Shown here: piece after piece, positions 6,692 through 62,167 of the stretch
Numbering within the stretch: position 1 is the first letter of the stretch
Layout of the letters: each line of letters begins with the position of its first letter
Assembly (NCBI GenBank): GCA_031291305.1
Contig: JARLJH010000019.1
Coordinates: 42,048-106,047 of the forward strand
Reading direction: 5' to 3'
Length of the DNA: 64,000 nt
Source of the DNA: Rhodoferax sp.
Lineage (GTDB): Bacteria; Pseudomonadota; Gammaproteobacteria; Burkholderiales; Burkholderiaceae_C
The notes under the pieces: model-generated
Database searches by the model: none
What the model was told of the DNA's origin: nothing
What the model saw: only the letters and a program-made list of their open reading frames with translations
Made by a program: the position numbers and the translations under genes

Positions 6692-7393
6692 CGACTGTGC
6701 AAAGGTGCACCAGTCTGCACTGCCATCGTTGCCAAAAACCTGTGTGACGCCCAGTGCAGCCAGCCGCTGACGCGCCAAACCCGCCAGGTTAGCCAGCCAT
6801 TTGCCGCCAGCCAATGGCTCGAACATGGTCGTCGCCTGCGCGTCGTGCGCCACAAACGCTGTGCGCACTTCGTCGCCAACCTCAAACGCCTGGGGACCGA
6901 TGCACGGGCCTAACCATGCTATGACATGTGTATCTAATTGCCCTTTATCTATAAGGGCTAGAGCACTAAAACGCTTACAAGTTTCTTCCAGAATGCCTGC
7001 GCCGCTTAACCCAGCCAAGCCACGCCAACCGGCATGGGCGGCGGCCACCCAGCGCCCGTCCACAGAGGCAAACAGAACCGGCAGGCAGTCTGCCACCATG
7101 ATGGTGCAGGCCAGTCCGGGCTGATTGGTCAAACAGGCGTCGGCCACGCTGGCGTGCGGTGTGGCTGCGTCCAGCTGCAGCACTTGCGTGCCGTGTACCT
7201 GGTTCAAAAACACGGGCTGCGCGCCGATGGCTTGCTGAAACATCGCCCGGTTGGTAGCCACATGCGCTGGATCGTCACCCACGTGGTCGCCCAGATTCAG
7301 GCTGTCATAGGGCGCAGTGGAGACCCCACCAGCGCGCGTACTGCATACCGCGTGCACGCCCGCCGGAGCGGGCCAGTCAGCTTGGATCAACAT
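6620..7393 (-). CDS. pgeF: Purine nucleoside phosphorylase / laccase-domain protein YfiH family
   Basis: 257 residues of the multi-copper-like DUF152/YfiH family, described as purine nucleoside phosphorylases or editing factors for peptidoglycan amino acids (PgeF). Zinc ligands are visible: NQVHGTQV, ADCLPVLF and AAHAGWRG. Between the GAGILEETCKRF and HVIAWLGPCIGPQ blocks there is an extra stretch (residues about 140-155, ALALIDKGQLDT) coded by a copy of the dispersed repeat at 6928-6975; both sides of the family signature remain in frame. It follows ycaO by 68 bp on the same strand and may be co-transcribed. Confidence 0.9.
   Translation of the reverse strand: MLIQADWPAPAGVHAVCSTRAGGVSTAPYDSLNLGDHVGDDPAHVATNRAMFQQAIGAQPVFLNQVHGTQVLQLDAATPHASVADACLTNQPGLACTIMVADCLPVLFASVDGRWVAAAHAGWRGLAGLSGAGILEETCKRFSALALIDKGQLDTHVIAWLGPCIGPQAFEVGDEVRTAFVAHDAQATTMFEPLAGGKWLANLAGLARQRLAALGVTQVFGNDGSADWCTFAQSSRFFSHRRDRVSGRLAVSIWRDA
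6928..6975 (+). repeat. Dispersed repeat inside pgeF, in frame
   Basis: Contains TTGCCCTTTATCTATAAG followed by GGCTAGAGC, closely matching the intergenic copy at 58361 (TTGCCCTTTGTTTACGGG then GGCTAGAGGCC). In the pgeF reading direction it encodes ALALIDKGQLDT. Confidence 0.8.
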
Positions 7394-7461
7394 ACCCTGC
7401 TCGCTCTTTACTCATGGTTTTTTTGAACTGGCATCACTGCCGCGCCGCGCCCACCAGCATC

Positions 7462-9192
7462 TCAAGCATGGGCTGCGTGCACCTTGTCATAAGCTTGCAG
7501 CAGCCTGTGATGCATTTCGCAGCCCTCCAGCGCCAGACCCGGCGCGCTCAGGCCCATGAAGCGGTCTTCCTGCATGATGAGGGCATGCGCCTGCGCCAGC
7601 GGACCGGCACCATACAACAATTCCAACGCATCCAGATACGGCCCGCTATCGCCCATGTCGGCCAGATGGATCAGGTTTTGAATGCAGGCGTAGACCGGCT
7701 TGCGCTGCGGGTTGAGCTGGTCAAAGTTCAGAATCCACTCGCAGCCTTCGAGCGTGGCGGCTTCGTCCCCAATGGCCAGGGCCAGCAGGGTTTTGAGTTC
7801 ACCCAGGCGCAGATCGGCCCAGAACGAGCCCGCATCGGCCGCCAGACCGATCAGCGCAGGCACCGGACGGTGGTCGGCCAGATTTGATTCATTCAGGGTT
7901 TCCAGCAAATCCGTGCACTCTTCGTCATCCAGATCGCTCAGGTTCAGGATGGCTTCACGGATCGGGTTGGCGATGCTGTTGTTCTCGAACTCCAGGTCGT
8001 CAATCGGGTAAATCTCGGACAGGCCGGGTACCAGGATGCGGCAAGCGTACACGCCCAGGTGGGTGAAATCGGCCACATAAATGTCATGACCATCCGCGTG
8101 CAGGCGCTGCACACACCAGGCGTAGTCTTCAGCCGTGGTGGTGCTGAAGTTCCAGTCGGCAAACTCAAAATCGGGCTGGTTACCCAGGAACTTCCAGTGG
8201 ATCACGCCGCTGGAATCGACAAAATGGATCTCGATGTTGGTGGAACTGGCGGTTTCTTCCAGGTCAAAACCCGGTGCCGGAAAGCCCGACAACGCATCCA
8301 GCGCGCGGCCTTGCAGCAGTTCGGTTAGCGCGCGCTCCAATGCCACTTCAAAACGCGGGTGCGCGCCAAAGCTGGCAAAACAGCCCTGGTCCTGCGGGTT
8401 CAGCAGGGTCACATTCATCACCGGGTATTGACCACCCAGCGACGCGTCCTTCACCAGAATACCAAAACCCGCCTCACGCAAAGCGGCGATACCCCGTGCC
8501 ACCCTTGGATAACGCGCTATCACTTCTTCAGGCACATCGGGCAGGCAAATGCCTTCGCTGATGATGCGCGCCTTGACGGATCGCTCAAAAATCTCGGACA
8601 GCGCCTGGGCCCGCGCTTCCATCGGTGTGTTGCCAGCCGACATGCCGTTGCTGACATACAGGTTGCCGATGATGTTGACCGGGAAGTAAACGGTGGCGCC
8701 GTCGCGCTCGCGTACATAGGGGATGGCGCAGATGCCGCGCTCATCATTGCCCGAGTTGAAATCGACTAGGCTATCAGCCTCTACCGTGCCCTGCGGGTTG
8801 TACAGCGCCTGCAACTCGGGGGTCAGCAAGGTGGCGGGCCACTCACCGTCCTCGGGCACAGCAAACCAGCGCTCTTGCGGGTAGTGCACAAAGTCGCGGT
8901 TGGCCACGTCCGGGCCGAGGTAAAAATGCGTCCAGAAATAATTGGTGGACAAGCGCTCAAAAAACTCGCCCAGCGCACTGGCCAGGCAGGCCAGGCGGCT
9001 GGCGCCCTTGCCGTTGGTGAACAGCAGCGGGCAGTCGCGGTCGCGAATATGGACCGACCAGATGCCGTCCACCGGGTTGAGCCAGCTACGTTCTTCGATA
9101 TGAAAGCCCAAAGCCTGCAGCTTGCCTTGCAGCGTGCTGATGGTGGATTCGAGGGCGGCGTCTTTGCCGGGAATAAAGGTGGTGTTATGCAT
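7462..9192 (-). CDS. ycaO: YcaO, accessory factor for ribosomal protein S12 methylthiolation
   Basis: 576 residues. Strong family match by eye to E. coli YcaO: TFIPGKDAALE at the start, SWLNPVDGIWSVHIRDRDCP, FTNGKGAS, ASALGEFFERLSTNYF, NIIGNLYVSNGMSAGNT, ASFGAHP and TELLQGR. YcaO-family ATP-binding residues lie in these blocks; the C-terminal third is the TPR-like extension seen in the E. coli type. E. coli YcaO assists RimO in modifying S12. I place the start at ATG 9192 because the match begins there; the open frame continues 26 codons upstream without similarity. Confidence 0.93.
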   Translation of the reverse strand: MHNTTFIPGKDAALESTISTLQGKLQALGFHIEERSWLNPVDGIWSVHIRDRDCPLLFTNGKGASRLACLASALGEFFERLSTNYFWTHFYLGPDVANRDFVHYPQERWFAVPEDGEWPATLLTPELQALYNPQGTVEADSLVDFNSGNDERGICAIPYVRERDGATVYFPVNIIGNLYVSNGMSAGNTPMEARAQALSEIFERSVKARIISEGICLPDVPEEVIARYPRVARGIAALREAGFGILVKDASLGGQYPVMNVTLLNPQDQGCFASFGAHPRFEVALERALTELLQGRALDALSGFPAPGFDLEETASSTNIEIHFVDSSGVIHWKFLGNQPDFEFADWNFSTTTAEDYAWCVQRLHADGHDIYVADFTHLGVYACRILVPGLSEIYPIDDLEFENNSIANPIREAILNLSDLDDEECTDLLETLNESNLADHRPVPALIGLAADAGSFWADLRLGELKTLLALAIGDEAATLEGCEWILNFDQLNPQRKPVYACIQNLIHLADMGDSGPYLDALELLYGAGPLAQAHALIMQEDRFMGLSAPGLALEGCEMHHRLLQAYDKVHAAHA

Positions 9193-9295
9193 CTTTGCAG
9201 CATAACAGCCGCGAGGCTTCTTGTTTGACCCTGCCCCCTGCGTTCCAGCGCCTCGCCCCCTAGAATCCATGTCATGATCATGCCACAGATTTACA

Positions 9296-9347
9296 TAAAA
9301 TGTGCCTATAGCCCTTGTTTTACATAGGCTTACAGCTATATTTTTTG
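9296..9347 (-). repeat. Dispersed repeat copy, intergenic
   Basis: CCTATAGCCC then TTACAGCTATATTTTTT, the reverse orientation of the family, between ycaO and the monooxygenase gene and ending 40 bp before its start. Confidence 0.7.
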
Positions 9348-9386
9348 AATCACCCGAACCACCACCTTCGCCAACAAGGAGACACC

Positions 9387-9689
9387 ATGATTCTTGAACT
9401 TGCCGACTTCTCCATCCTGCCCAACCAGAACGCCGCTTTTGAGGAAGCCATCAAACGCGGCATCAAGACGGTGATTGCGCGTTCCGAAGGTTTTGAGGGC
9501 TTCAAGCTCAACCGCTGCATCGAGAACTCCGAACGCTATGTGCTGCAAATCTTCTGGACGACGCTGGAAGATCACACCGTGGGGTTTCGCGAATCGCCCG
9601 CGTTTGGTCAATGGCGCGCCATCGTCGGCCCGTTTTTCGCCAGCCCACCGGTGGTGCAGCACTTTGACCTGGTCGCCAAATCGGCTTGA
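9387..9689 (+). CDS. Antibiotic biosynthesis monooxygenase (ABM) family protein
   Basis: 100 residues, a single dimeric alpha-beta barrel domain of the ABM type: a start like MILELADFSILPNQ, the central GFEGFKLNRCIENSERYVLQ and the end EDHTVGFRESPAFGQWRA, WRAIVGPFF. Start at ATG 9387 behind CAAGGAGACACC. Family members act as small monooxygenases or have no known substrate. The next gene, 44 bp downstream on the same strand, is an FAH-family hydrolase, so a role in aromatic or quinone degradation is possible but not shown. Confidence 0.85.
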   Translation: MILELADFSILPNQNAAFEEAIKRGIKTVIARSEGFEGFKLNRCIENSERYVLQIFWTTLEDHTVGFRESPAFGQWRAIVGPFFASPPVVQHFDLVAKSA

Positions 9690-11012: not shown

Positions 11013-11114
11013 ACTTCAGGCCGTTCTGGTCATCTGGTTTTTCCGCGCTGGCGACTTTTTTGTAACCAGCGTGCTCGACGACCCGGCTTGGCTGGCCTTC
11101 ATGTTTTGCTGATG

Positions 11115-11163
11115 TTTTCAGGCGCTAGCCCCCGTCCACTAAGCGCCTACAGCTATTATTTTT
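11115..11163 (-). repeat. Dispersed repeat copy just upstream of the exonuclease gene
   Basis: GGCGCTAGCCCCCG then GCCTACAGCTATTATTTTT; ends nine bases before the ATG at 11172. Confidence 0.75.
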
Positions 11164-12587: not shown

Positions 12588-12823
12588 AGAATACCCAACT
12601 AGCCCAGTTAATACAAGGATAAGTTGCTGTGTATTTCATAGCGTCCAAACACCCTACCATTTCAGGCAAGAGCCACACCTCCTGATGCGTTCATCACGTT
12701 CAGCCAACCGGTTCCTTGTTTGCCACGGTGTGCCAGCTTGATAGGGCATGTAATATTTGCTTCGACTTCAGGAGCAATTTGCACAATATATTCAAGGGCT
12801 AGAGGCGGGAATCGTCTATAAAG
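12588..12823. other. Intergenic stretch with two degenerate repeat remnants
   Basis: No gene seen. An ACTAGCCCAG block at about 12598-12607 and GGGCTAGAGGC at about 12795-12806, each in AT-rich surroundings, look like decayed copies of the dispersed repeat. The stretch is more AT-rich than its left neighbour. Confidence 0.4.
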
Positions 12824-14593
12824 ATGAAAACAATGCGCAACGAAAGTTACTCTCCAATCCTCAGCTCACTCGCCATTGCTGACTACCGTAGCTTTGGTGC
12901 AGAACCTCAGTATTTCCCGCAATTTTCCAAAATCAATATCCTGATTGGCCAGAACAATTGCGGGAAATCCAATGTGCTGCGATTCATCCATGATTGGCTG
13001 GCCCGGATCCAACAACACCCGCGACCAACCTTAACCCACCATGACCGGCATTTGCCGTCCGGCGGAATTGGACTGCAGTATGGAATACTTCCTCCGTACT
13101 TTGATAATGAAAAGATAGATATCGAAGCCCTATGCGGACATTTTCAAATCGAGAGAAGTTCACACTATCAATTCACACTGAATGCTCTTTTTACCGAACG
13201 ATTGAAACTTGGCAATGTTGTCAATGCACCTTGGTTTATTTTTGCAGAGGACGGCAAACTTCAGGATTCCACTTGGAAAAACGCTTTCAAGACTATCTCG
13301 GATCATGATCTGCACAATTTGTGGCAACACCTAACCCAACAAAGCGGCGGTTCAAGAGAGCAGCACTGGATACCTCAAACACTCCAAAGACTCTCACCAT
13401 CGATCCCACCATTCACCTGCCACCTCATTCCAGCCATCCGAAAAATTGGCTCCAAAGGCAGTTCCTCAGAGGAATTCAGTGGCGAGGGCCTCATCGAACG
13501 GCTGGCAAAGCTTCAAAATCCGCCGGCAGTCGAGCAACAGAGCAAAAAACTCTTCAAAAAAATCGGCGACTTCCTCCGCACGGTCACCGACAACAACAGC
13601 GCGGAAATTGAAATCCCCTACGACCGGGACACGATTCTTGTGCACATGGATGGCAAAACATTGCCTCTGGATTCCCTGGGCTCTGGCATCCATGAGGTGA
13701 TCATCCTGGCGGCCGCAGCAACAGTGCTGGATAACTGTGTCATTTGTATGGAAGAGCCCGAATTGCATCTGAACCCGATTCTTCAAAAGAAATTAGTGCG
13801 TTATTTGCAGGCGAATACGTCCAACCAGTATTTCATCACCTCGCACTCCGCCGCCTTGATGGACACGCCCGAAGCCGAGGTGTATCACATCACATTGCAC
13901 AACGGCGCGTCGCTGGTTGAACGGGTCACCTCCGACAAACAACGCTCAATGGTTTGCGAAGACCTTGGCTACCACCCCTCTGACCTGCTGCAAACCAACT
14001 GCGTCATCTGGGTCGAGGGGCCGTCAGACCGCATTTACCTGAACTGGTGGATCACGGCCATGGATGCTGAATTGGTAGAGGGCATCCACTACAGCATCAT
14101 GTTTTACGGCGGTCGCCTTGCCTCTCACCTGAGTGGTGGCGATCCAGGTGAATTCGTGGACGACTTTATCTCCTTACGGCGGCTCAACCGCAGAGGCGTC
14201 ATTCTGATTGACAGCGACAGGCCGAGAAAAGGTGCTGCGCTAAACAGTACCAAATCGAGGCTTCGCGATGAATTCGACTCAGGCCCAGGGCATGCATGGA
14301 TTACCGAAGGCCGGGAGATCGAAAACTACTTGGAACCTGAACTGCTGAAGAAAACCATCACGGCGGTGCACCCGAACATGCCGATTGCCACTGAATTCGA
14401 CAAGTACGACAACACACTAACGGTCAAAAATCGCAAAGGGGAGACAACCCAGGCATCCAAAGTGAAAGTCGCAAGCTCAATCATCAGTTCGGGAAGCCCC
14501 AACCTGGATCGTTTTAACCTGCGCATGCAGGTGAATAAGCTTGTGGCTTTTATCCAGGAATCCAATCCCGTTGTAACAGCGGCCATGCAATGA
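12824..14593 (+). CDS. OLD-family ATP-dependent endonuclease (AAA ATPase plus TOPRIM)
   Basis: 589 residues. N-terminal SMC/RecF-like ATPase: Walker A in NILIGQNNCGKSNVLRF (about residues 38-54), a signature-like LDSLGSGIHEV segment and Walker B in VICMEEPELHLNP. A TOPRIM nuclease domain follows (VIWVEGPSDRIYL Glu motif near residue 395, LIDSDRPR acidic motif near 465). Class 1 OLD proteins such as phage P2 Old and GajA of Gabija act in phage defence or DNA processing. No GajB-like helicase or other defence gene is beside it, so it would be a stand-alone OLD. Its codon use is visibly more AT-rich than its neighbours, which suggests transfer. Confidence 0.85.
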   Translation: MKTMRNESYSPILSSLAIADYRSFGAEPQYFPQFSKINILIGQNNCGKSNVLRFIHDWLARIQQHPRPTLTHHDRHLPSGGIGLQYGILPPYFDNEKIDIEALCGHFQIERSSHYQFTLNALFTERLKLGNVVNAPWFIFAEDGKLQDSTWKNAFKTISDHDLHNLWQHLTQQSGGSREQHWIPQTLQRLSPSIPPFTCHLIPAIRKIGSKGSSSEEFSGEGLIERLAKLQNPPAVEQQSKKLFKKIGDFLRTVTDNNSAEIEIPYDRDTILVHMDGKTLPLDSLGSGIHEVIILAAAATVLDNCVICMEEPELHLNPILQKKLVRYLQANTSNQYFITSHSAALMDTPEAEVYHITLHNGASLVERVTSDKQRSMVCEDLGYHPSDLLQTNCVIWVEGPSDRIYLNWWITAMDAELVEGIHYSIMFYGGRLASHLSGGDPGEFVDDFISLRRLNRRGVILIDSDRPRKGAALNSTKSRLRDEFDSGPGHAWITEGREIENYLEPELLKKTITAVHPNMPIATEFDKYDNTLTVKNRKGETTQASKVKVASSIISSGSPNLDRFNLRMQVNKLVAFIQESNPVVTAAMQ

Positions 14594-14948: not shown

Positions 14949-15000
14949 TTCTGCAGACCACGCCAGAAGGACTTGCCAAAGCATGACAAACATCATAGAA

Positions 15001-15050
15001 AATTAGGCTATAGCCCAGGTAAACACTTGACTTCTAGCTATATATTCAAA
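15001..15050 (-). repeat. Dispersed repeat copy, downstream of the phosphatase gene
   Basis: GGCTATAGCCCAGGTAAA then TTCTAGCTATATATT. It starts 52 bp after the phosphatase stop, the same distance as the copy after the deleted phosphatase gene near 19801. Confidence 0.7.
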
Positions 15051-15151
15051 AGTTTTACAACTTGGAAGCTTCCAGCAATACGCATTCCCCTGGTGTGCTG
15101 ATCGCGCTCAGTCAGCACATTCATTGACCACTCCCAACATAAGGATCCCCC

Positions 15152-16381: not shown

Positions 16382-18610
16382 TCAAGGCGCCGACTCTGGC
16401 AGGATCCGCCTTGGCCCTTTGGCTTTGTCGGCTTCAGCTTTCAACGCATCTGCTCTGGCCGCGCTGGCCTTGGCCTCCTTGGCTCTCTCAGCTGCGGCCT
16501 TCGCACCCGCAGCATCGTTTGATTGGGCCTTGGCAGCCTCATCTCTGGCCCTGTTGGCTTTGGCGGCATCGGCTTTGTCACGTTCAGCTTTTGCGGCTGC
16601 AGCCCGTGATTGTTCAGCTTTTTGGGCATCTGCTCTGGCCGCACTGGCCTTGGCCTCGTTAACTTTGTCAGCGTTTGCCTTCTCAGCAGCAGCCCTGATC
16701 ACGTCGGCCTTGGCCGCATCCTCTCTGGCCCAGTTGGCTTTGGCGGCATCGGCTTTGTCACGTTCGGCTTTTGCGGCGGCAGCCCGTGATTGTTCAGCTT
16801 TTTGGGCATCTGCTCTGGCCGCGCTGGCTTTGGCCTCGTTGGCTTTGTCAGCGCCAATCTTTCCATCAGGGATTTGAGGTGCTGGTGTTCTTGCCCGATC
16901 CTTTGTCGCTGGCAATGCTTTCACGGCGTCTGTTTTGGGAGTCTCTGACTGCACGGGCGGGGCATTGGCCTTATCTGCCTTGCGATCACTTGGCGACCTT
17001 CCCTTCGGGGCGACGGGAGGTGGGGCGGCCGTAGGCGTGTTCACCTTGGCAATCGGCACCACAGTCACATTGCGAACTGAGTCTGATTGGGTTCTGAACT
17101 TGAGTTGCTTGCGTTGCTGATCATCGATGGGTGTGCCTGGTTTTTCAGCGAGTTGCGATTGCTGGGCGACAAATCCGAGCGCAGGCGCAGGCGGCGCAGT
17201 TCGGGCAACGATGTGACGCTCATGGCTTGGCGGTTTTGAGCGAGCATCCGGTGCGCCACCATGAACGCTCTGCAACGTTGGCGCGAATGCGGCGACATGC
17301 GTCGCCGTAGCGCGGTTTGCTTCATCTTTGGAAACGGCCACCGCATGCTTTGACACTGGCTGCGACTCGGTAAATGCCCGCGTGGGCACAGCCACAACTG
17401 CACCTGGTATGCGTTGATTGACATAGACCACCTTGGTCACATTGACAACCGTGCTGTTGGTTTGGGTGACGCGTGTGTTGTAAACGTTGGTAATGGTCGT
17501 TGAAGGAATCACCGTATTGCTGCGGTTCACCCTGTCAAAGTAACCCCGGCTGACCGGATATGCAGGTTGATAGACCTCACGTGGGGCCAGCGGAAACCAG
17601 CCTACAGCACCGCCACCATCGCCCACCGATACCGCTCCCTGAAAATTCTTCCCACCCAGAAAGACAACCAAGGCGGGGGCATACACGGCCTGTTCACGCC
17701 GTGGACCGGGTATCCAACACCATGAGCCACCGACATGTGCCCAGCGACCATAGTGCGACACAGCGTATCCCCAGGGTTCATCGGCAACCCAGCTCCAGCC
17801 CCATGGGTCAATCCACGCCCAATGACCGTCGCGATAAGGCGTCCAGCCAGATGGAACTCGATGGGGCCGCCAAACGTTGCCGTAACTTGGGTCAGAACGC
17901 CAAGACCCGTAGGCATCCAGATCTTCATACCCGACCACGTCGTAAGACACATAGCGCGCTGCATCCGAGTTGGCAAAGCTTCGGTCGCGATCGTGAGACC
18001 AGCGATCCAAATCATCATCAAACTGTGCAGACACAGCTTCATAGTCAGATAAGTTCGTGCCGTAAAAGCGATAGCCCTGACCTGCTTGGACCAAATAAGA
18101 GGCGCCGTCGCCATAAACCTGCGCCTGCCCGAGTTGTACCGCCACCAGAGTCGCATCGCCGCTAGGATCCACATCAATGCGGTAGTCGCCCGCTTGGCTA
18201 AGCGAAAAGGAGAGGTTGGGGGTATCCACCTCAAAACTTTGATGAGGCCCCATCTGGCGGACCCGGATTTTCAATGCGCCTTGCGAAAGCTGGATCTGGG
18301 TGATCGTGTCATCCAGATTGATGATCATGATGTCAGTGCTTGCACCCAAACGAATTGCGGCTCCACCGACCTGCAGTTCGGCGCGTGAATCGGTGTCTGT
18401 CCATAGGCGATCTCCCGTAGTCAGTGGCCGATTCAGTGCGGCTTGTACCCAGTCAACATCTCCCGCCGGTGAAAAACTCACCGATCCGTCGATGTAGCCC
18501 AGTCGCGCAACACGTGCCGACGGATCAGCGTGTGCACCACTGACGGCAAATAGCAGTATCAGGCCAGCCATAAAAGCGGTGAATCTGCTCTTGAAATGAT
18601 TTACCGGCAT
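16382..18610 (-). CDS. Secreted FecR-domain / DUF6600-type protein with Ala/Lys-rich repeat tail
   Basis: 742 residues from ATG 18610 behind AAGGGGAG. Signal peptide (KSRFTAFMAGLILLFAVSGA, then HA). Residues about 30-170 look like a FecR sensor-type domain (RVARLGYIDGSVSFSPAGD, GDRLWTDTDSRAELQVGG). A Trp/Tyr-rich DUF6600-like part follows (GVWRPHRVPSGWTPYRDGHW style, DEPWGYAVSHYGRW). From about residue 570 the chain is Ala/Lys/Asp/Glu-rich and likely a long helix, with a 60-residue unit repeated twice. The stop comes early: one frame over, the Ala/Lys-rich pattern goes on (KADPARVGALKAEVARAA and on) to a TAA at 16326. Function unknown; probably periplasmic or envelope-bound. Confidence 0.8.
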   Translation of the reverse strand: MPVNHFKSRFTAFMAGLILLFAVSGAHADPSARVARLGYIDGSVSFSPAGDVDWVQAALNRPLTTGDRLWTDTDSRAELQVGGAAIRLGASTDIMIINLDDTITQIQLSQGALKIRVRQMGPHQSFEVDTPNLSFSLSQAGDYRIDVDPSGDATLVAVQLGQAQVYGDGASYLVQAGQGYRFYGTNLSDYEAVSAQFDDDLDRWSHDRDRSFANSDAARYVSYDVVGYEDLDAYGSWRSDPSYGNVWRPHRVPSGWTPYRDGHWAWIDPWGWSWVADEPWGYAVSHYGRWAHVGGSWCWIPGPRREQAVYAPALVVFLGGKNFQGAVSVGDGGGAVGWFPLAPREVYQPAYPVSRGYFDRVNRSNTVIPSTTITNVYNTRVTQTNSTVVNVTKVVYVNQRIPGAVVAVPTRAFTESQPVSKHAVAVSKDEANRATATHVAAFAPTLQSVHGGAPDARSKPPSHERHIVARTAPPAPALGFVAQQSQLAEKPGTPIDDQQRKQLKFRTQSDSVRNVTVVPIAKVNTPTAAPPPVAPKGRSPSDRKADKANAPPVQSETPKTDAVKALPATKDRARTPAPQIPDGKIGADKANEAKASAARADAQKAEQSRAAAAKAERDKADAAKANWAREDAAKADVIRAAAEKANADKVNEAKASAARADAQKAEQSRAAAAKAERDKADAAKANRARDEAAKAQSNDAAGAKAAAERAKEAKASAARADALKAEADKAKGPRRILPESAP
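16558..16852. repeat. Two copies of a 180-bp period coding repeat
   Basis: 16558-16672 and 16738-16852 are nearly identical over 115 bp (five or so differences), giving a 180-bp period inside the tail of the FecR-domain gene. The unit encodes AKASAARADAQKAEQSRAAA then AKAERDKADAAKAN. Confidence 0.9.
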
Positions 18611-18775
18611 CACGACTCCCCTTAAATTGGACAGCAGGTCAGTACCGGTACAACAAGCTCCATTGGTTTCTGCCTGCCTCGTACGGCAATTCAGCGGCAA
18701 GAATAAATGCCTGGGCCAATACGTTCTGTACGCCACCGGACAAACTGTCATCATTGCCTGTCCGGATCACCAAAG

Positions 18776-19748: not shown

Positions 19749-19800
19749 TTTGGCTGGCTGCGTAAGCAGTGTCTGGTCACGCCATTTGCGGATTTATTGA

Positions 19801-19857
19801 CAAAATCAGCTTCTAGCCCAGGAATCAACTGGGTTATCTACTACGCAAATAGTAGCG
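19801..19857 (-). repeat. Dispersed repeat copy downstream of the phosphatase remnant
   Basis: CTTCTAGCCCAGGAATCA then AACTGGGTTATCTACTACGC and AAATAGTAGC. It lies 52 bp after the remnant's stop. Confidence 0.6.
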
Positions 19858-26153: not shown

Positions 26154-26232
26154 AGCGGGCAGCCTAAGCCACAGCTCAGCGAGATCAGTAACACCATTGG
26201 CGTGATGGCGCTGGTTTTGGAGGATTCATAAC

Positions 26233-26287
26233 AAAGTCACCCTCTAGTCATTGAATTACCTTGGCATGCAGCTATATATCAAGTAGC
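26233..26287 (-). repeat. Dispersed repeat copy after the ribose operon
   Basis: CACCCTCTAGTCATTGAA then CATGCAGCTATATATC. It lies in the 233-bp gap between rbsD and the broken nuclease gene. Confidence 0.65.
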
Positions 26288-26386
26288 ACCCCAACACCTC
26301 AATAGACCCACCCCGCAGCGTCTCATCCGCCAGGATGGTGTGAAATATGATCAAGGCTTCTCTCCCCCATGGATGCGGCCAGAACC

Positions 26387-27558: not shown

Positions 27559-27570
27559 AGTTTGCGAAGG

Positions 27571-27624
27571 AAATATGCCTGTAGCCCAGGTAAATTGGGG
27601 GTATGTAGCTGTAAACAATGTAGC
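27571..27624 (-). repeat. Dispersed repeat copy
   Basis: ATGCCTGTAGCCCAGGTAAA then GTATGTAGCTGTAAAC, in the gap between the broken nuclease gene and the convergent EEP-family gene. Confidence 0.65.
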
Positions 27625-27705
27625 ACCATAACATCCCAGGTGACGCACAACACACCCTCATTCGCCGCCAACGTCTCCCCCCAGCACTGTGATTGGTCCG
27701 CCAAG

Positions 27706-28425: not shown

Positions 28426-28560
28426 TCCAATCCCCCGAATTACTTGCCGTCGTCAAAACCAAGTCTAGCTTCTTCATGTCATGAAGAGTGAGGATGCAAA
28501 GCTTTAGAGGCCAAGTAGCCATCCGAATCTGTCCACGCCATCACAGCCAAACATTTGCAT

Positions 28561-28616
28561 AACAAATTACCCTATAGACCATGAATCACCTGGGCATACA
28601 GCTATTACAAAAATAG
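28561..28616 (-). repeat. Dispersed repeat copy
   Basis: TTACCCTATAGACCATGAAT then GGCATACAGCTATTACAAAA. It ends six bases before the stop of the carbamoylase gene. Confidence 0.65.
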
Positions 28617-28621
28617 CATTC

Positions 28622-29587
28622 TCAGCCCTCAACCGCCCCACCCCACAGCGTCCCATCCGCCGCCAGCGTCTCCCCCTTGCGCTGCGTGATCAGCCCATAG
28701 GCCTGCGGCTGGCGGTGCAGATCAAAGTTGAAAGTGGTGCGTTTGTAGACGGCGCAAAAGTCCAGATCACAGCGGGCAATGGCCATCTCATCGCCCTTGG
28801 TCAGGCAGCGCGCCACCACCTCACCCGACGGGGCGACGATGCAGCTGCCGCCGATGCTGTCCACGCCCTCTTCCATACCCGCCTTGGCCACGCCCACGAC
28901 CCAGGTGCCGTTGTGGTAGGCCCCGGCTTGCAACGAGAGCTGGTTATGAAACAGGGACAGGTCGTCATGCTGCGGTGCGGGGGCGTTGTGCACCGGGGTG
29001 TTGTAGCCGATCAGCACCATCTCCACGCCTTGCAGGCCCATCACGCGGTAGGTTTCGGCCCAGCGGCGGTCGTTGCAGATGGCCATGCCCAGGATGCCGC
29101 CGAAGGCTTGGGTCACCTCCCAGCCCGTACCGGGGGTGAAGTAGCGTTTTTCCAGGTGCTGAAAGCGCCGCCAGGGTTCGTGCTCTTTGTGGCCGGGCAG
29201 GTGCACCTTGCGGTATTTGGCGACGATCTGGCCGCTGCCGTCGACCAGGATGGAGGTGTTGTAGCGCACCTCGCCCGTGGCTTCTTGCGCCAGCTCGGCG
29301 TAGCCCAGGTAGAAGCCCACGCCTAATTCTTTGCCCAAGTCGAACAGCGGCTGCGTGGCGGCGTTGGGCATGCTGCGCTCGAAGAAGCTGTTGATCTCGG
29401 CCTCGTCCTCGATGTACCAGCGTGGGAAGAAGGTGGTGAGCGCCAGCTCGGGGAAGACGATGAGTTGCGCACCCACAGCGTGGGCTTGGCGCATGAGTTC
29501 ACACAGGCGGGCCACCACCTGGGTGCGGGTGTCTGCGCGTTGGATGGGGCCGAGTTGGCCGAGGGCGACGTTGAGGTAGCGTGGCAT
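28622..29587 (-). CDS. N-carbamoyl-D-amino acid hydrolase (nitrilase superfamily)
   Basis: 321 residues. Nitrilase-type Glu-Lys-Cys triad: Glu in VFPELALTTFFPRWY (about residue 46), Lys in KYRKVHLPG and Cys in GMAICNDRRW (about residue 172). The N-terminus and the NDRRWAETYRVMGLQG and YNTPVHNAPAPQHD segments are those of D-carbamoylases, which release CO2 and ammonia from N-carbamoyl-D-amino acids. It follows the M20-type hydrolase gene by 19 bp in a minus-strand operon that starts with the ammonia-lyase. No hydantoinase gene is nearby. Confidence 0.88.
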   Translation of the reverse strand: MPRYLNVALGQLGPIQRADTRTQVVARLCELMRQAHAVGAQLIVFPELALTTFFPRWYIEDEAEINSFFERSMPNAATQPLFDLGKELGVGFYLGYAELAQEATGEVRYNTSILVDGSGQIVAKYRKVHLPGHKEHEPWRRFQHLEKRYFTPGTGWEVTQAFGGILGMAICNDRRWAETYRVMGLQGVEMVLIGYNTPVHNAPAPQHDDLSLFHNQLSLQAGAYHNGTWVVGVAKAGMEEGVDSIGGSCIVAPSGEVVARCLTKGDEMAIARCDLDFCAVYKRTTFNFDLHRQPQAYGLITQRKGETLAADGTLWGGAVEG

Positions 29588-37311: not shown

Positions 37312-37373
37312 TTGTATGCATGACACCTGCCAACCAGCCGTACTTATGAATCCGGCATTTTCTGGGAGTATAT

Positions 37374-37431
37374 GAAATTTCGATGCCTAGCCCCCGTGAT
37401 GCATGAATAGCTAGCTATATATTGCATAGCT
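37374..37431 (-). repeat. Dispersed repeat copy upstream of the diguanylate cyclase gene
   Basis: CGATGCCTAGCCCCCGTGAT then TAGCTAGCTATATATTGC. The 484 bp from 37312 to 37795 otherwise hold only the tRNA terminator; I see no supported gene there. Confidence 0.65.
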
Positions 37432-37756
37432 TTAGGGAGACTCAGACAAATGAAGCCGACAAGGCGTCATCCTCACTGCGCCATCGTTTCCAAATGAATA
37501 ATGCATTGGCACCAATAGCGTTTAACCTCATAGTGCACTTGATCTGTTACGTCATTGCTTCGGGCGCTCTTGAGCAAGATATACATCGTCTGGAAAGCAT
37601 CGACTAGATGGTGCATTCAGTTTAGATTGGCACCGTTAGCCAGTAGCGATTGACGAATGCGAAACTGTAATAAAAAATGCTTTAAAAGCATATTTCACCG
37701 TATCCTGATTGATCAGTCTATTGGTGGGATCAGCAAATTTTCAAGCCCTAGAAATA

Positions 37757-42872: not shown

Positions 42873-43730
42873 CTACAGCGTGAGCAACGCGGCAGGCAAA
42901 TTCAGCTTTTTGATCTTTTCAGCCGCCTTCTCAGCCTCAGCTTTGGAAGCAAACGGGCCTATCCGTACGCGGATACGCTTGCCGTCCTTGGTGTCAACCG
43001 CCTGGGCATAGGTTTTGAGACCTGCATGCTCAAGTTTCAAACGCACCTCATGAGCGTGGGCGTTGTCGGCATAGGCTCCGACCTGCACAATAAACCGGCC
43101 ATCTGGCGCGGATGCAGCAGGTTTGACCGCAGGCACTTTGGATGCGTCGACTTTGGTCATCTTGGGCGGATTGACCTTGCCATCCAGCAAGGCTTGCGCC
43201 CGGTTGGCGTCAGATTTGGCGGTGGAAACAGGTACTGGAGCGGCTACGGGCGGCGCCTTAACCGGCGCTTTTGGAACGACAGCGCTGATTTCGGGCTTAG
43301 TCGGCTGAGGGGACTCAGTAACTATTGTATTAGTAGCTTTCTGCCCTTTATCTACGGGGGCTGAGGCCTTATTTCCTTCAGCCTTTTTGTCGATCGACAC
43401 AGGCGGCGAAGCCGCAGCTGGTGTGTCGACAGAAGGCGCAGAAGTTACGCTGGATGCCGATGCAGATGCCACTGCCGCCTTGACGCCGGTGTCAGGCATC
43501 ACCAGTGGTGGCACCTTGTTTTTGTCCGGGATGCTGATGGGTGTATCAACAGCGATGGGTCTCGGCTGTTTGTCAAACAGCATCGGCAGGCCAACGACAC
43601 CGACCAGCACCAGCACCGTCGCCCCGGCCAGACGGTATTTGGCCCGCTGGCGAATGGCTTCGATGCTTTGTGGTTGCGCGGGCGCTCTGGCGGATTCATC
43701 AGCGCCCTTGCGAAACTTGAAAAAAGCCAT
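42873..43730 (-). CDS. SPOR-domain protein (DedD-like)
   Basis: 285 residues. Short cytoplasmic part, one membrane anchor (YRLAGATVLVLVGVVGLPML, about residues 32-51), a long Ala/Pro/Lys-rich periplasmic linker and a C-terminal SPOR domain (FIVQVGAYADNAHAHEVRLK, IRVRIGPFASKAEAEKAAEK) that binds denuded glycan at the division site. The linker part at residues about 118-134 (ASAPVDKGQKATNTIV) is coded by a copy of the dispersed repeat at 43329-43375. Position between folC and cvpA is usual for Burkholderiales. Confidence 0.92.
   Translation of the reverse strand: MAFFKFRKGADESARAPAQPQSIEAIRQRAKYRLAGATVLVLVGVVGLPMLFDKQPRPIAVDTPISIPDKNKVPPLVMPDTGVKAAVASASASSVTSAPSVDTPAAASPPVSIDKKAEGNKASAPVDKGQKATNTIVTESPQPTKPEISAVVPKAPVKAPPVAAPVPVSTAKSDANRAQALLDGKVNPPKMTKVDASKVPAVKPAASAPDGRFIVQVGAYADNAHAHEVRLKLEHAGLKTYAQAVDTKDGKRIRVRIGPFASKAEAEKAAEKIKKLNLPAALLTL
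43329..43375 (+). repeat. Dispersed repeat inside the SPOR protein gene, in frame
   Basis: TAGTAGCTTTCTGCCCTTTA then TCTACGGGGGCTGAGGCC, nearly the same as the intergenic copy at 58361 (AGCTGCTTGCCCTTTGTTTA then CGGGGGCTAGAGGCC). Confidence 0.88.
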
Positions 43731-43749: not shown

Positions 43750-45066
43750 TCAGGAGGTTGGCAGATGCTTGGCCGACAGCCGGGGCGAGCCGTCCTTGAG
43801 AACGCTGCCCACGGTGTAAAACGACCCGAAGACGACGATTCTATCAGCGGGGTCTGCGCCTACCAGGGCGGCTTGCAGCGCCGATTCGGGGTCCGCATGG
43901 ACCGTGGCGGTAGCGTCTTTGCGCGTGTTGAGCGCCTGCCAGCGCTGCAACAAATCAGCGCCGGAGACGGCACGCGGTGTCGACAAATCGGTGAAATACC
44001 ACTTGTCAATGATCGGGTTGATGCGCGTCAGCATAGCCTGCAAATCCTTGTCGGCCATGGCGCCAAACACCGCGTGGGTTGTTGGAAAAAAGCCCATGGC
44101 ATCCAGGTTGGCGGTGAGCGCGGCCACGGCGTGCGGGTTGTGCGCCACGTCCAGCACCAAGGTGGGCTGGCCCGGCACGATCTGGAAGCGCCCGGGCAAT
44201 TCCACCGACAGCAAACCCGAACGAACCGCCTGCGCCGTCACCGGCAACTGCTCGCGCAACGCGGTAAGTGCCGCCAGCACGCCTGCGGCATTGACCAACT
44301 GGTTGGCGCCGCGCAACGACGGGTATGCCAACCCGGCATAACGCCTGCCGCGCCCGGCCCAGCCCCATTGCTGCTTGTCGCCCGACACGTTGAAATCGAC
44401 GCCGACGCGCCACAGGTCGGCCCCCACCTCCAACGCCCGATCCAGCACACTTTGCGGCGGCATCGGGTCGCTGACGATCACCGGCTTGCCGGTGCGCATG
44501 ATGCCGGCTTTCTCGTAACCAATGGCCTCGCGGTCTGGCCCCAGCAGAGCCATGTGGTCCAGATCCACACTGGTGATGATGGCGCAGTCGGGCTCGATGA
44601 TGTTGACCGCGTCGAGCCGACCGCCGAGGCCGACTTCCAGAATCACCACGTCAAGCGGCTGATGACGCATCACGTCCAGAATCGCCAACGTGGAGAATTC
44701 AAAATAAGTGAGCGAAATTACATCATCTTTTTGGCATCTAGCCCTTTCAACGTCTGCGAAAGCAGCTATCAATGACGCAGCATCGACAGGTGTGCCATTG
44801 AGGCGCAGGCGCTCTTCAAAATGCACCAGATGCGGCGACGTATAGACGGCGGTGCGGTAGCCCGCCTGCAGCAAAATCGCTTCAAGCATGGCGCAGGTGG
44901 AGCCTTTGCCATTGGTGCCTGCCACGGTGATCACCGGGCATTTCAAGGTAATGGCCATGCGCTGGGACACCGTGCGCACGCGCTCCAGCGTCAGATCGAT
45001 GGCCACCGGATGAAGTTGCTCGCAATAGGCAAGCCAGTCGTTGAGGGTTTGAAAGGTATGTGTCAT
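43750..45066 (-). CDS. folC: Dihydrofolate synthase / folylpolyglutamate synthase
   Basis: 438 residues from ATG 45066; the frame is open 27 codons further up but without family similarity. Mur-ligase fold: P-loop TVAGTNGKGSTCAMLEAILL near residue 48, YTSPHLVHFEERLRLNG, ILEVGLGGRLDAVNI, TSVDLDHMALLGPDREAIGY then EKAGI, and VLDVAHNPHA. At residues about 98-114 the loop before SLTYFEFSTLAI is coded by a copy of the dispersed repeat. The accD and trp genes that usually precede folC in this block are absent; a divergent yffB-type gene is there instead. Confidence 0.95.
   Translation of the reverse strand: MTHTFQTLNDWLAYCEQLHPVAIDLTLERVRTVSQRMAITLKCPVITVAGTNGKGSTCAMLEAILLQAGYRTAVYTSPHLVHFEERLRLNGTPVDAASLIAAFADVERARCQKDDVISLTYFEFSTLAILDVMRHQPLDVVILEVGLGGRLDAVNIIEPDCAIITSVDLDHMALLGPDREAIGYEKAGIMRTGKPVIVSDPMPPQSVLDRALEVGADLWRVGVDFNVSGDKQQWGWAGRGRRYAGLAYPSLRGANQLVNAAGVLAALTALREQLPVTAQAVRSGLLSVELPGRFQIVPGQPTLVLDVAHNPHAVAALTANLDAMGFFPTTHAVFGAMADKDLQAMLTRINPIIDKWYFTDLSTPRAVSGADLLQRWQALNTRKDATATVHADPESALQAALVGADPADRIVVFGSFYTVGSVLKDGSPRLSAKHLPTS
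44723..44772 (-). repeat. Dispersed repeat inside folC, in frame
   Basis: TTTTTGGCATCTAGCCCTTT and GCGAAAGCAGCTATCAA match the reverse of the family blocks (GGGCTAGAGGCC and TAGCTGCTT). In FolC it encodes AFADVERARCQKDDVI. Confidence 0.75.
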
Positions 45067-45136: not shown

Positions 45137-45625
45137 ATGAAAACCACCTCTACCCCCTCCTCCGGCGTCGTCGTTTACGGTATTCCCAATTGCGACACCG
45201 TCAAGAAAGCCCGCACCTGGCTGACCGACCACGCCGTTGACTACACGTTTCACGATTTCAAAAAGCAGGGCGTACCTGCCGACCTGCTGCCGGGCTGGCT
45301 CGCGGCTGCGGGCTGGCAGACGCTGGTGAACCGCAAGGGCACGACCTGGCGCAAACTCGATGAAGCCACACGCCTGGGAGTGATCGACGACGCTTCCGCC
45401 ACCGCGCTGATGCTAGCCACCCCCAGCGTCATCAAGCGGCCTGTGGTGGTGTGGGGTGATGGTGGTGTCAGCGTGGGGTTTTCTGCTGAGGCGTTTGAAC
45501 CGGGATACAAACCGTTCGCGGCGATACCCGCAAGGCAGGGCCTTGGGGCAGCTTCCTCATACTGGAGTACCAGAAATCGTCAGCCGCCCCAAGGCCCTGC
45601 CTCGCTAGACGTTTGTGTGAGTTGA
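45137..45625 (+). CDS. ArsC/Spx-family reductase (YffB type)
   Basis: 162 residues from ATG 45137. Clearly of the YffB type: VVVYGIPNCDTVKKARTWLT, YTFHDFKKQG, LVNRKGTTWRKLDEATR, MLATPSVIKRPVVVWGDGG and VGFSAEAFE. The single N-terminal Cys (PNCDT) fits ArsC-like proteins that use glutathione. The last about 36 residues (from PFAAIPARQGLGAASSYW) are not family sequence; they are read from the hairpin at 45530-45605, so a normal C-terminus near residue 128 has been replaced or extended. Confidence 0.87.
   Translation: MKTTSTPSSGVVVYGIPNCDTVKKARTWLTDHAVDYTFHDFKKQGVPADLLPGWLAAAGWQTLVNRKGTTWRKLDEATRLGVIDDASATALMLATPSVIKRPVVVWGDGGVSVGFSAEAFEPGYKPFAAIPARQGLGAASSYWSTRNRQPPQGPASLDVCVS
45530..45605. 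repeat. Hairpin 1: 24-bp imperfect stem with the shared loop
   Basis: Arm 45530-45553 pairs with 45582-45605 at 22 of 24 positions; the central 17 bp (AGGCAGGGCCTTGGGGC) are perfect. The 28-nt loop holds TACTGGAGTACCAGAAATCG, the reverse complement of the loop of hairpin 2. It overlaps the 3' end of the yffB-type gene. Confidence 0.92.
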
Positions 45626-45703
45626 AAAATCGTGCTGTGCCACCGCGCAGGCGGAAACCGGACTTAGGTATCGTTCAACACCGTCCTCTGATCAACGGCG
45701 TCA

Positions 45704-45780
45704 GCGCAGTAGTCGGATAGGGCGACCCCCCGATTTCTGGTACCCCAGTATGAGGGGGTCGCCCTATCCGACTACTGCGC
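45704..45780. repeat. Hairpin 2: 27-bp perfect stem with the shared loop
   Basis: Arm 45704-45730 (GCGCAGTAGTCGGATAGGGC then GACCCCC) pairs perfectly with 45754-45780. The 23-nt loop at 45731-45753 (CGATTTCTGGTACCCCAGTA then TGA) differs in one base from the inverted loop of hairpin 1. Inside the loop CTGG and CCAG can pair. Lies 114 bp before ppnP. Confidence 0.95.
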
Positions 45781-46211: not shown

Positions 46212-46229
46212 TTCACCGCCTATCTTCAT

Positions 46230-47621
<1,392 letters not shown>

Positions 47622-47835: not shown

Positions 47836-48360
47836 TTAACCCCCAATGGCATCTTTCGCAGCACAGGCCGCCCATTGCGGCAAGTCGGGCATGGGGGCCT
47901 CGCCGGTTGAGACCTCAGGCGGTACTTCGAATTTTCGAAGCAATGCACCGTCCTCAATTCGGCGCAGCTCAAAGAGCTTCGGGGTTGCACCGTGCAGCAG
48001 CGCGCGCTTGAAGGCTACCGCCGTTCCGCCACGCTCGAAGCACCACCCAAAGGTGGCCTGATCTCCCGCAAATGCATGAAGTTGTCGGTGCGTGTCTAGG
48101 ACGATCACGGCAAGCGGTATGGGGTAAGACGCGCAGCAGTTCGGCGAGAGTGAGAGCCAGCCGACATACTGACCGTTGAGCGCAATCTTGGGCGACCGAA
48201 ATGCCACCTGATCATCTTGCTTTGGTGCAAGCCAAGACGACCCCGAGCGGTCGCGAATTTCCAGTTTCGAACCATTTTTCGCAAGGATAAAGGTCGAGAA
48301 CGGTGACTGCGCATACACAGAAAGCGAGATGAATGCCGCGAGTACAGCCAAGGATCGCAT
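47836..48360 (-). CDS. Secreted protein of unknown function
   Basis: 174 residues from ATG 48360 behind GAAAGGTAG. Signal peptide MRSLAVLAAFISLSVYAQ. Contains SPFSTFILAKNGSKLEIRDR, VAFRSPKIALNGQYVGWLSL, SPNCCASYPIP and VIVLDTHRQLHAFAGD, which looks like a small beta-rich domain with repeat-like strands. I do not recognise a family. It points toward the argG terminator. Confidence 0.65.
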   Translation of the reverse strand: MRSLAVLAAFISLSVYAQSPFSTFILAKNGSKLEIRDRSGSSWLAPKQDDQVAFRSPKIALNGQYVGWLSLSPNCCASYPIPLAVIVLDTHRQLHAFAGDQATFGWCFERGGTAVAFKRALLHGATPKLFELRRIEDGALLRKFEVPPEVSTGEAPMPDLPQWAACAAKDAIGG

Positions 48361-48390: not shown

Positions 48391-48447
48391 TTTCAAGCCT
48401 TTTTGGCTTCTAGCCCAATTGGCTAAAAGGCTGACAGCTCTCATTTT
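48391..48447 (-). repeat. Dispersed repeat copy
   Basis: CCTTTTTGGCTTCTAGCCCA then AGGCTGACAGCTCTCATTTT, between the secreted protein gene and the epimerase-like gene. Confidence 0.7.
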
Positions 48448-48488
48448 AAAAGCAAATCCAGCTCAATACAAACGATGGCTTCAACCCA

Positions 48489-58360: not shown

Positions 58361-58412
58361 CTTTTTTAATAGCTGCTTGCCCTTTGTTTACGGGGGCTAG
58401 AGGCCAATTTAA
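58361..58412 (+). repeat. Dispersed repeat copy forming the leader of the next gene
   Basis: TTTTTTAATAGCTGCTTGCC then CTTTGTTTACGGGGGCTAGA and GGCCAATTTAAT. It ends two bases before the ATG at 58415 and carries AGAGG at a suitable spacing. Best-kept copy in the window. Confidence 0.92.
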
Positions 58413-58414
58413 TC

Positions 58415-58924
58415 ATGAACTCTGAATCTGCCAACGCCTTACCCCACGAGCCACGACTGAACCGCGAACTGCGCGCCATGTTGCAAACCCAGCGCGTGGC
58501 CGCATTGGGCACGCTCAATAACGAGGGCAAGCCTTTTGTATCCATGGTGCCGTTTGCCATCGAACCGCAAACCGGTGCACTGATCATTCATGTCAGCCTG
58601 CTGGCCCCGCACACACGCAATCTGTTGTCTGACCCTGCGGTGTCGGTGATGGTGATGCAGTCCGAAATGCCTGGTGAGCCGGTGCATGCACTGCCACGGG
58701 TGTCGCTGGATGGCATCGCTGCCCGCCTACAGCCCGACAGCGCAAGCTGGCAGGCTGCCCGCAGCGCTTACCTGGGCCGTTTTCCCGACGCGCAAATCAT
58801 GACGGAGTTGGGCGATTTCAGCTTTGTGGCGATCACGGTGACGCAGGCGCGCCAGGTAGCCGGATTTGGCTCGGCCCGGCCGTTGGAGCCCGAAGACATC
58901 ACCAGCGTGCTCAAGCCGCGTTAA
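58415..58924 (+). CDS. Pyridoxamine 5'-phosphate oxidase-fold (HugZ-like) protein
   Basis: 169 residues. Split-barrel flavin-binding fold: LRAMLQTQRVAALGTLNNEG, KPFVSMVPFAIEPQTGALII, HVSLLAPHTRNLLSDPAVSV, and AAYLGRFPDAQIMTEL-like SAYLGRFPDAQIMTELGDF. HugZ-type members degrade haem; others reduce small substrates. Its 3' end overlaps the convergent amidotransferase gene by 4 bp. Confidence 0.85.
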   Translation: MNSESANALPHEPRLNRELRAMLQTQRVAALGTLNNEGKPFVSMVPFAIEPQTGALIIHVSLLAPHTRNLLSDPAVSVMVMQSEMPGEPVHALPRVSLDGIAARLQPDSASWQAARSAYLGRFPDAQIMTELGDFSFVAITVTQARQVAGFGSARPLEPEDITSVLKPR

Positions 58925-60389: not shown

Positions 60390-60694
60390 GGATTCCAAAA
60401 AACACTCCTGGCACCCGGCGTTGCGGGCTTGAAAAGAGCCATTTTGCCAGCCTGCGCCCGCCGTTCGTGCATAGACGCTTAACGTGAAAGAGAAATCACG
60501 ACGACTGAAATGACGTTTGATAGGGGTGGCGAAGACCCGAATGCCGTTTTTCACTCACTTTATTCAACGCATATGTTGTGTTTCAGGCTTCGCCCTTACC
60601 CTGGCAAGCCCGCCGCTATTACCCCGCCTCGCAGCGACGCAGTTGCTTTCGACGACAGGGCCGGGCTTACCCTGACACGGACTTCCAGTCCGCT
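60390..60694. other. Intergenic stretch without recognised gene
   Basis: About 305 bp between plsY and the U32 protein gene. CTTACCCTG occurs twice (60595 and 60666), and AAGCCCG (60606) faces CGGGCTT (60662), which may form a weak hairpin. No gene is supported. Confidence 0.4.
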
Positions 60695-62041: not shown

Positions 62042-62105
62042 GGTTGCGTTGTCTTTGAATGGGTTCACGGCATGCCATCAGGGCACGCCTTGTCGGCGCG
62101 ATAAA

Positions 62106-62167
62106 ACTATAAATTCAATAGCCACTTGCCAAGGAAATACCTGGGCTAAAGGCCATTTTTTTATAAA
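62106..62167 (+). repeat. Dispersed repeat copy between trhP and aroC
   Basis: TTCAATAGCCACTTGCCAAG then CCTGGGCTAAAGGCCATTTT. It almost touches the aroC stop at 62169. Confidence 0.75.

Follow-up and report, generated by a model that had tools for sequence, protein, structure and literature searches.

The window analysed here is a stretch of 64,000 nucleotides (nt) of Rhodoferax sp. (assembly GCA_031291305.1, contig JARLJH010000019.1, positions 42,048-106,047, forward strand), taken from a genome of 4.98 Mb in 69 contigs. It contains many copies of a dispersed repeat, located both in the gaps between genes and inside genes. In a first-pass annotation of this DNA the repeat had been described as about 50 bp long, with at least twelve intergenic and four coding copies, and interpreted as a non-autonomous element that inserts like the Rickettsia palindromic elements. 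Our analysis bears out a dispersed, near-palindromic repeat that is present in gaps as well as within essential genes and is abundant in some Comamonadaceae. However, insertion is not supported as a general rule, because the copies in the genes encoding RlmI and DapF have the same length as the corresponding sequence of both motif-free relatives compared, and the copy in the gene of an MBL-fold protein the same length as in one of the two. We tentatively propose instead that the repeat is a motif resembling DNA uptake sequences.

Copies of the repeat in the window

The window was searched with a profile hidden Markov model built from 30 copies located elsewhere in the genome, none of them from the window. 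All twelve intergenic copies described before were re-found, 11 of them at E<=7.6e-4 and the one at 37371-37433 at E=0.010, and the same profile gave further matches in a SPOR-domain gene, in pgeF, in folC (weak) and in one additional gap (12779-12822). The repeat is genuine: 20 order-2 Markov shuffles of the window yielded no match at E<0.01 (best 0.091), and the best match in the reversed window had E=0.97. With 16 copies at E<=0.01 per 64 kb, the window is denser than the genome sample described below (106 copies per 864 kb). An Rfam scan of the window returned three tRNAs only, and no family matching the repeat above the gathering score. The copies are the following:

6916..6980, + strand: motif copy in pgeF (6620-7393, - strand), read in frame; E=1.1e-8
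9290..9356, - strand: intergenic copy; E=6.4e-9
11111..11163, - strand: intergenic copy just 5' of the open reading frame (ORF) at 11172, aligned at the same place in several relatives; E=1.5e-4
12779..12822, + strand: weak intergenic copy ahead of an AAA ATPase gene; E=2.6e-4
14994..15055, - strand: intergenic copy; E=2.8e-5
19792..19856, - strand: intergenic copy; E=1.6e-6
26231..26289, - strand: intergenic copy; E=7.6e-4 (1.3e-8 when the copy was part of the profile)
27562..27627, - strand: intergenic copy; E=6.5e-7
28554..28622, - strand: intergenic copy; E=2.8e-7
37371..37433, - strand: weak intergenic copy; E=0.010 (4.7e-5 when the copy was part of the profile)
43316..43378, + strand: copy in the low-complexity linker of a SPOR-domain (FtsN/DedD-like) gene (42873-43730, - strand); E=1.5e-9
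44727..44784, - strand: weak match inside folC; E=2.6e-4
46224..46286, + strand: copy immediately 5' of argG (46278), with orthologous copies; E=2.5e-9
48391..48457, - strand: copy in the gap beside 47836-48360, overlapping that ORF only if its longest start (48444) is used; E=3.3e-7
58363..58418, + strand: strongest intergenic copy of the window, before a HutZ-like gene at 58415, with orthologous copies; E=1.2e-13
62103..62167, + strand: intergenic copy 3' of aroC (62169-63263, - strand); E=8.0e-10

The four coding copies mentioned in the first-pass annotation had not been listed; two can be recognized with confidence (pgeF and the SPOR-domain gene) and one is weak (folC), and no clear fourth was found. 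The linker that holds the copy in the SPOR-domain gene varies in length among relatives. An insertion at the folC match was ruled out, since the 10 genomes compared are colinear there, with a single one-residue gap.

Abundance, anatomy and genome-specific spellings

Several approaches indicate that the repeat is abundant throughout the genome. Firstly, the exact core TAGCTN{2,6}GCCCN{5,15}GGGCTA occurs 74 times, and the reversed pattern does not occur at all. Secondly, a covariance model gave 1602 first-look candidates, and all of the 150 that were scored match at E<=0.021. Thirdly, a refined profile detected 106 copies in a sample of 864 kb (the window, C12 1-400k, C25 1-200k and C53 1-200k) and none in the reversed and order-2 Markov controls, which extrapolates to roughly 600 copies per genome. 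The other genomes compared are denoted by G numbers; one of them, G251, carries 59 copies in 400 kb, with none in the reversed control.

The consensus of the motif is about TTGCTATnnAATTnATAGCTnCTTGCCCTTnnTnnATAAGGGCTAGAGGCCnATTTnnTTATA. The TAGCT, GCCC and GGGCTAGAGGCC blocks, the AT-rich ends and the occurrence in either orientation had been described correctly, but the conserved stretch is wider than the 50 bp proposed: it spans about 66 bp and consists of TTGCTAT, an AT block, ATAGCTnCTTGCCC, a variable middle, GGGCTAGAGGCC and a right block ATTTnnTTATA made up of ATTT and TTATA. The motif has two-fold symmetry, and one copy with the exact pattern (C2:75163-75199) is a perfect palindrome around its loop. 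Its information content is about 55 bits, as calculated from copies selected by the profile. Among the 106 copies of the window's genome adjacent columns covary strongly, as blocks, and over all column pairs no Watson-Crick covariation beyond independence was found (highest z 3.0).

The copies of the window's genome are balanced between the strands (54/50), and in co-directional gaps those oriented with and against transcription show no clear bias (24/29; 16/9 in G251). Convergent gaps, on the other hand, are enriched: they hold 18 of the 79 intergenic copies, versus 39 of 349 among gaps of at least 70 bp, and in G251 they hold 17 of 44 copies, versus 27 of 185 gaps. A hairpin functioning at the RNA level, as a bidirectional terminator or mRNA stabiliser, would explain this enrichment together with the inverted-repeat arms. 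However, about a quarter of the copies are located within genes, their orientation to transcription is inconsistent and base pairs do not covary among the 106 copies of one genome, and we regard such a role as very improbable. Because strand bias, clear transcription bias and pair covariation within the genome are all missing, the motif is probably a DNA rather than an RNA site, and its anatomy speaks for a site on duplex DNA, recognized through two half-sites, rather than for an RNA hairpin. Like uptake sequences, it is over-represented genome-wide, on both strands and in coding as well as intergenic DNA. A run of + strand matches in G251 pointed to a replication-strand bias; this was rejected as an artefact, since the strands were mixed in the 20 stretches read.

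The motif is spelled differently in different genomes. Two exact forms were counted, TAGCTN4GCCC..GGGCTA and the symmetric TAGCTN4GCGC..GCGCTA, which were found in 11 and 45, respectively, of 250 genomes of the family (the reversed GCGC control reached up to 6 per genome). The two forms exclude each other, in that genomes with at least 10 of one form (4 for GCCC/GGGC and 27 for GCGC/GCGC) have at most 1 of the other. For instance, the window's genome has 73 GCCC/GGGC and 1 GCGC/GCGC matches, whereas the congeneric G121 has 0 and 103; G178 has 31 and 0, and its congener G072 has 0 and 38. In a survey of the genus the GCCC/GGGC form was present in 35 of 89 genomes, with 1 to 187 matches; the GCGC/GCGC form was counted in the window's genome, G121 and G214, and G214 has neither exact form. 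Further symmetric spellings occur in other genera (GCCCAGG..CCTGGGC in G148 and GCCCAtg..caTGGGC in G099). Among the 80 stretches listed, out of at least 110 found in a search of named genomes, many belong to Rhodoferax and other Comamonadaceae; the single matches in unrelated phyla are at the level that chance gives for 15 fixed bases.

The third base of the left arm illustrates these dialects at the level of individual copies. It is G in 13 of 14 copies of G250, 9 of 9 of G312, 8 of 8 of G121 and 3 of 3 of G296, and rarely G in G251 (3/71), G283 (1/16), G253 (2/15) and the window's genome (20/104); for G250 versus G251 the Fisher test gives 1e-11. The split is maintained at orthologous colinear sites, where G is found in 6/6 copies of G250 and 5/5 of G312 versus 0/7 of both G251 and G283. 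At pgeF, the arms are GCGCTT..AAGCGC in G121, GCGC..GGGC in G250 and G312, and GCCC..GGGC in the window's genome and G251, while the local oddities GAGCAC and AAAA are common to all of these genomes. Since these oddities are shared while the arms differ, the arms have changed in place. Thus, as in uptake sequences, each genome has one dialect that differs between species, with G319 and G252 (left arm) and G121 (right arm) as exceptions.

It is conceivable that the copies are the sites of an abundant chromosomal DNA-binding protein, such as a nucleoid, segregation or domain organiser, that are kept by ordinary selection and co-evolve with its specificity. The dyad, whose half-sites differ in concert from genome to genome, and the enrichment in convergent gaps support this view, as does the missing pair covariation within the genome, because of which each half-site would be read separately. 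On the other hand, it would require strong selection at each of hundreds of sites, the coding sequence of essential genes included; moreover, the spacing of the copies is no more regular than random in the one 400 kb block analysed, no strand pattern is seen along G251 and some congeneric genomes, such as G214, do without the motif. Taking both sides together, we consider this explanation quite unlikely.

Coding copies and their fate among relatives

Within the 864 kb sample, 25 of the 106 copies fall within predicted genes and 2 extend partly into one, according to an approximate gene finder that missed pgeF, whose copy is to be added; in G251, 13 of the 59 copies are within genes. Host genes in the window's genome include those of DapF, RlmI, ProA, TrpB (in its tail), tRNA nucleotidyltransferase and a UvrD-type helicase (in a linker), among others, and those in G251 include MutS and glutamate racemase (TrpB, UvrD and the MBL-fold gene were named by eye, the other genes by comparison with homologues). 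Most of the coding copies with E<1e-4 (18 of 24) are read in one phase, a preference that is at least partly forced because in the other phases the motif holds stop codons. Coding copies are missing from some orthologues, for example from RlmI and DapF of G214 and G288, and the pgeF copy was found in 16 of 30 Rhodoferax pgeF loci, the window's own included (E<5e-4). In G148, a motif copy (C16:2333-2362) lies inside a stretch that matches the ComEC competence domain.

Comparison of these sites is informative about how the copies originated. Nine genomes align without gaps over 104 columns at RlmI and ten do so at DapF, in both cases with the motif-free G214 and G288 among them. At the MBL-fold site the motif-free G288 is likewise gap-free, G214 is shorter and G319 has an additional 48 nt beside the motif. 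RlmI is colinear to within 1 amino acid (aa) with 3c0k (yccW of E. coli) over the 48-bp core, and a 3-aa difference lies beyond it. In G251, the length of MutS at its copy differs by no more than 2 aa from that of 5x9w, a Neisseria protein, and the glutamate racemase is within 3-4 aa of 3hfr and 2jfn. A copy in a pseudouridine-synthase gene lies outside the stretches aligned with its homologues. The tRNA nucleotidyltransferase, by contrast, has extra length, being about 6 aa longer than 1vfg, and DapF is 11 aa longer than 8qzy, yet colinear across the genus. Furthermore, the native sequence without the motif is already partly motif-like, as exemplified by GGCCATTT in DapF of G214.

An orthologous stretch was found in relatives for 17 of the 105 copies with usable flanks. 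For ten of these 17, one relative or more has a copy scoring at least 15 bits with no difference in length, and for eight at least two relatives do, which suggests that many copies are old. G251, G274 and G283, which are 91-94% identical over about 2.5 kb, have most copies at matching places in the 20 kb compared. In a tree of four proteins G288 is sister to G251/G283; it is without the motif at RlmI, DapF, the MBL-fold gene and PgeF, and retains it at four other sites. Because G288 is nested beside motif-bearing genomes, its four missing copies were lost, three of them (RlmI, DapF and MBL) without any change in length. In 47 colinear orthologous pairs from 10 sites the core columns are 87% identical, a figure that is inflated because the profile favours the spelling of the window's genome and relatives' copies were included from 15 bits upwards; identity is 81% in the flanks and 74% and 54% in the other motif columns. 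These comparisons show that the motif formed and was lost in place at some sites, with equal length at RlmI, DapF and, for G288, the MBL-fold gene, and near-equal length at MutS. An uptake sequence would be expected to arise in this manner, but other sites (ProA, M20, PgeF, the TrpB tail and several gaps) have extra length, and formation in place may thus apply to part of the copies only.

A possible uptake-sequence-like motif and its alternatives

Based on the above, we propose that double-stranded DNA is recognized at this repeat, a large motif with dyad symmetry. Its copies would build up and persist genome-wide, largely in place rather than by insertion as an element, as nearly matching stretches acquire point changes and, in some cases, small indels. 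In each genome many loci carry that genome's own bases, fixed in place on either strand and also within genes, which seems to call for a trans-acting cause; this would be a DNA-binding function with shifting specificity. The most likely drive would be sequence-biased uptake during natural transformation, followed by homologous recombination, such that better-matching fragments would enter the cell and displace the alleles already there, in the manner of the DNA uptake sequences (DUS) of Neisseriaceae and the uptake signal sequences (USS) of Pasteurellaceae. The genome-specific spellings would then correspond to uptake dialects and might act as barriers to gene exchange between species. To this reading, an uptake-sequence-like motif that biased uptake of DNA together with recombination would maintain, and of which we infer the uptake step, we assign a probability slightly below one half. 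With somewhat more reserve, we suggest that it could be a third independent lineage of DNA uptake sequences, in Comamonadaceae: a dyad of 50-66 bp with two half-sites, whose dialects may switch genome-wide via intermediates of broken symmetry (GCGC/GCGC -> GCGC/GGGC -> GCCC/GGGC). Essential genes would thereby be rewritten at their existing sites, and gene exchange would become divided along species lines.

To our knowledge, sequence-tagged DNA uptake is established only in Neisseriaceae and Pasteurellaceae, and no description of the motif was found in the open-access literature searched. The window's genome contains a comEC gene. Verminephrobacter eiseniae and Acidovorax temperans are reported to bind DNA selectively and to be transformed exclusively by DNA of their own species, with no motif given (PMC4212676). 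The repeat supplies a testable candidate motif for such selective transformation in Comamonadaceae, and natural series of its dialects can be followed within a single genus as well as site by site among orthologues. Should uptake turn out not to be responsible, a strong molecular drive would still be implied by the hundreds of sites that share their genome's spelling, some of them in essential genes and formed without insertion.

Several observations weigh against uptake as the cause. With about 55 bits, the motif is much longer than known uptake motifs, and the uptake receptor is only postulated. All 40 genomes tested for ComEC have it, whether rich or poor in the motif, and it is therefore permissive rather than discriminating. 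The A. temperans data are 'not shown' in the cited paper and may reflect a need for homology (PMC4212676). The copies are spaced no more evenly than random, left arms are mixed in G319 (6/10 G) and G252 (3/6 G), and just 4 of the 8 copies found in G121 have a GCGC right arm. The motif is scarce in mobile DNA (0 of 50,697 phage records, 1 of 72,556 plasmids and 1 match in viral contigs), which carries little weight because the queries recover just 14-16, and 2, of the 106 copies of the window's genome. Finally, the copy is accompanied by extra length at a number of sites. ProA is about 25 aa longer than 4ghk, an M20 peptidase is 16 aa longer than 3pfe and PgeF is 4-10 aa longer than in the motif-free G288, G302 and G293; the TrpB tail and the gap adjacent to trpB have an additional 18 nt and 47 nt, respectively, compared with G252/G214; and G251, G121 or G296 lack 27-91 nt of the gaps at C12:325863, C12:388647 and window position 9298. 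An alternative anchoring also placed 63 nt more in RlmI of G288 than the gap-free alignment, which we take as an anchoring error.

The extra length at the non-colinear sites is about 12-90 nt; relatives also differ in length at the weak site C25:97202. Insertion is possible at the longer sites, so that the earlier claim, although contradicted at RlmI, DapF and, for G288, MBL, keeps some ground at PgeF, ProA, M20, the TrpB tail and several gaps. This leads to the other chief rival besides the sites of a chromosomal protein, namely an old insertion family: a palindromic mobile element that is non-autonomous, of the kind represented by Rickettsia palindromic elements, REP/RAYT or MITEs, with old insertions decaying and with the spellings representing successive active families. 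Apart from the extra length, it would account for near-perfect palindromes such as C2:75163-75199 and for the patchy presence of the motif (35 of the 89 genomes of the genus have the GCCC/GGGC form). In addition, one motif copy (L102:1124-1167) lies 7 bp past the end of a Y1 (RAYT-like) transposase gene, and G020 and G232, the sole genomes without a Y1 match among 12, are motif-free by both patterns. However, such an element would not explain the zero length change at RlmI, at DapF and, for G288, at MBL, and replacement of whole copies would not produce arms that vary by genome at one site while its oddities are shared (GAGCAC and AAAA at PgeF). Moreover, G214 has Y1 genes (4 matches) without either exact form, and the motif-rich G148 has just a Y1 match below the cut-off; overall, Y1 matches are present in 10 of the 12 genomes (9 above the cut-off) and do not clearly track copy number. 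No target duplications stood out, although they were not searched for systematically and the intergenic empty sites are too diverged to read them. We consider it unlikely that the repeat as a whole is such an element.

The proposed uptake-sequence-like motif can also be compared with known systems. DUS occur on both strands. In Neisseriaceae they have been described as present in many copies, spelled alike genome-wide, divided into species dialects and limited by the reading frame when in genes, and a transformation and recombination bias has been proposed (PMC3630211). The repeat shares with DUS the many copies per genome, the single genome-wide spelling, the dialects and the copies inside genes; it differs in that DUS are words of 10-12 bases with a CTG core, whereas the repeat is about 50-66 bp long and dyad-symmetric, with AT-rich ends and unrelated letters. 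By inspection, the core letters of DUS and USS are absent from its consensus. The USS consists of a core with AT-rich flanking blocks and accumulates in place; the repeat is built likewise, but has a different core and, unlike the USS, is a dyad. Rickettsia palindromic elements are palindromic repeats in gaps and, in frame, in protein genes, but they are insertions; the repeat resembles them in these locations and in being palindromic, whereas its RlmI, DapF and MBL copies are colinear with a motif-free relative, although some other gene copies do carry extra length. REP sequences are short imperfect palindromes in gaps with genome-specific variants; the repeat is likewise palindromic and variable between genomes but, unlike REP, is common in coding sequence and has no clear link to Y1 transposases. 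The beta-proteobacterial repeat element (BRE) is 75-91 bp long, with 69% GC in Bordetella, tandem arrays and at most 29 copies (in Polaromonas JS666; PMC3110155). Both BRE and the repeat are dispersed in Comamonadaceae with some copies in genes, but BRE is GC-rich, in contrast to a motif of about 66 bp with AT-rich ends, and the repeat does not fit the definition of BRE.

Other features were observed in the window and in the genomes searched. The AAA ATPase gene at 12824-14593 has weak matches to the effectors of retrons Eco8 and Ec78 (PtuA); one copy of the motif lies in the gap preceding it and another (14994-15055) past the next ORF. An ORF of 790 codons (16382-18754) contains three overlapping copies of a 180-nt direct repeat at 16433-16882. 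At 45704-45780 there is a perfect inverted repeat of 27 nt (GCGCAGTAGTCGGATAGGGCGACCCCC) with 23 nt between its arms, and further inverted repeats are present at 45530-45764. Another dispersed repeat, about 51-55 bp in length (G000:C25 ~88990-89045; L085:8993-9043), recurs at many places, mostly at 85-96% identity, in several of the 10 Rhodoferax genomes searched, and in G250 it forms tandem arrays with a period of 71-78 bp. A stretch of about 230 bp (L085:13950-14180) has many partial matches within the same genomes and constitutes another repeat family. Lastly, a stretch of about 700 bp (L066:6532-7233) has many matches of 73-85% in the 10 genomes searched and is probably a multicopy protein domain.

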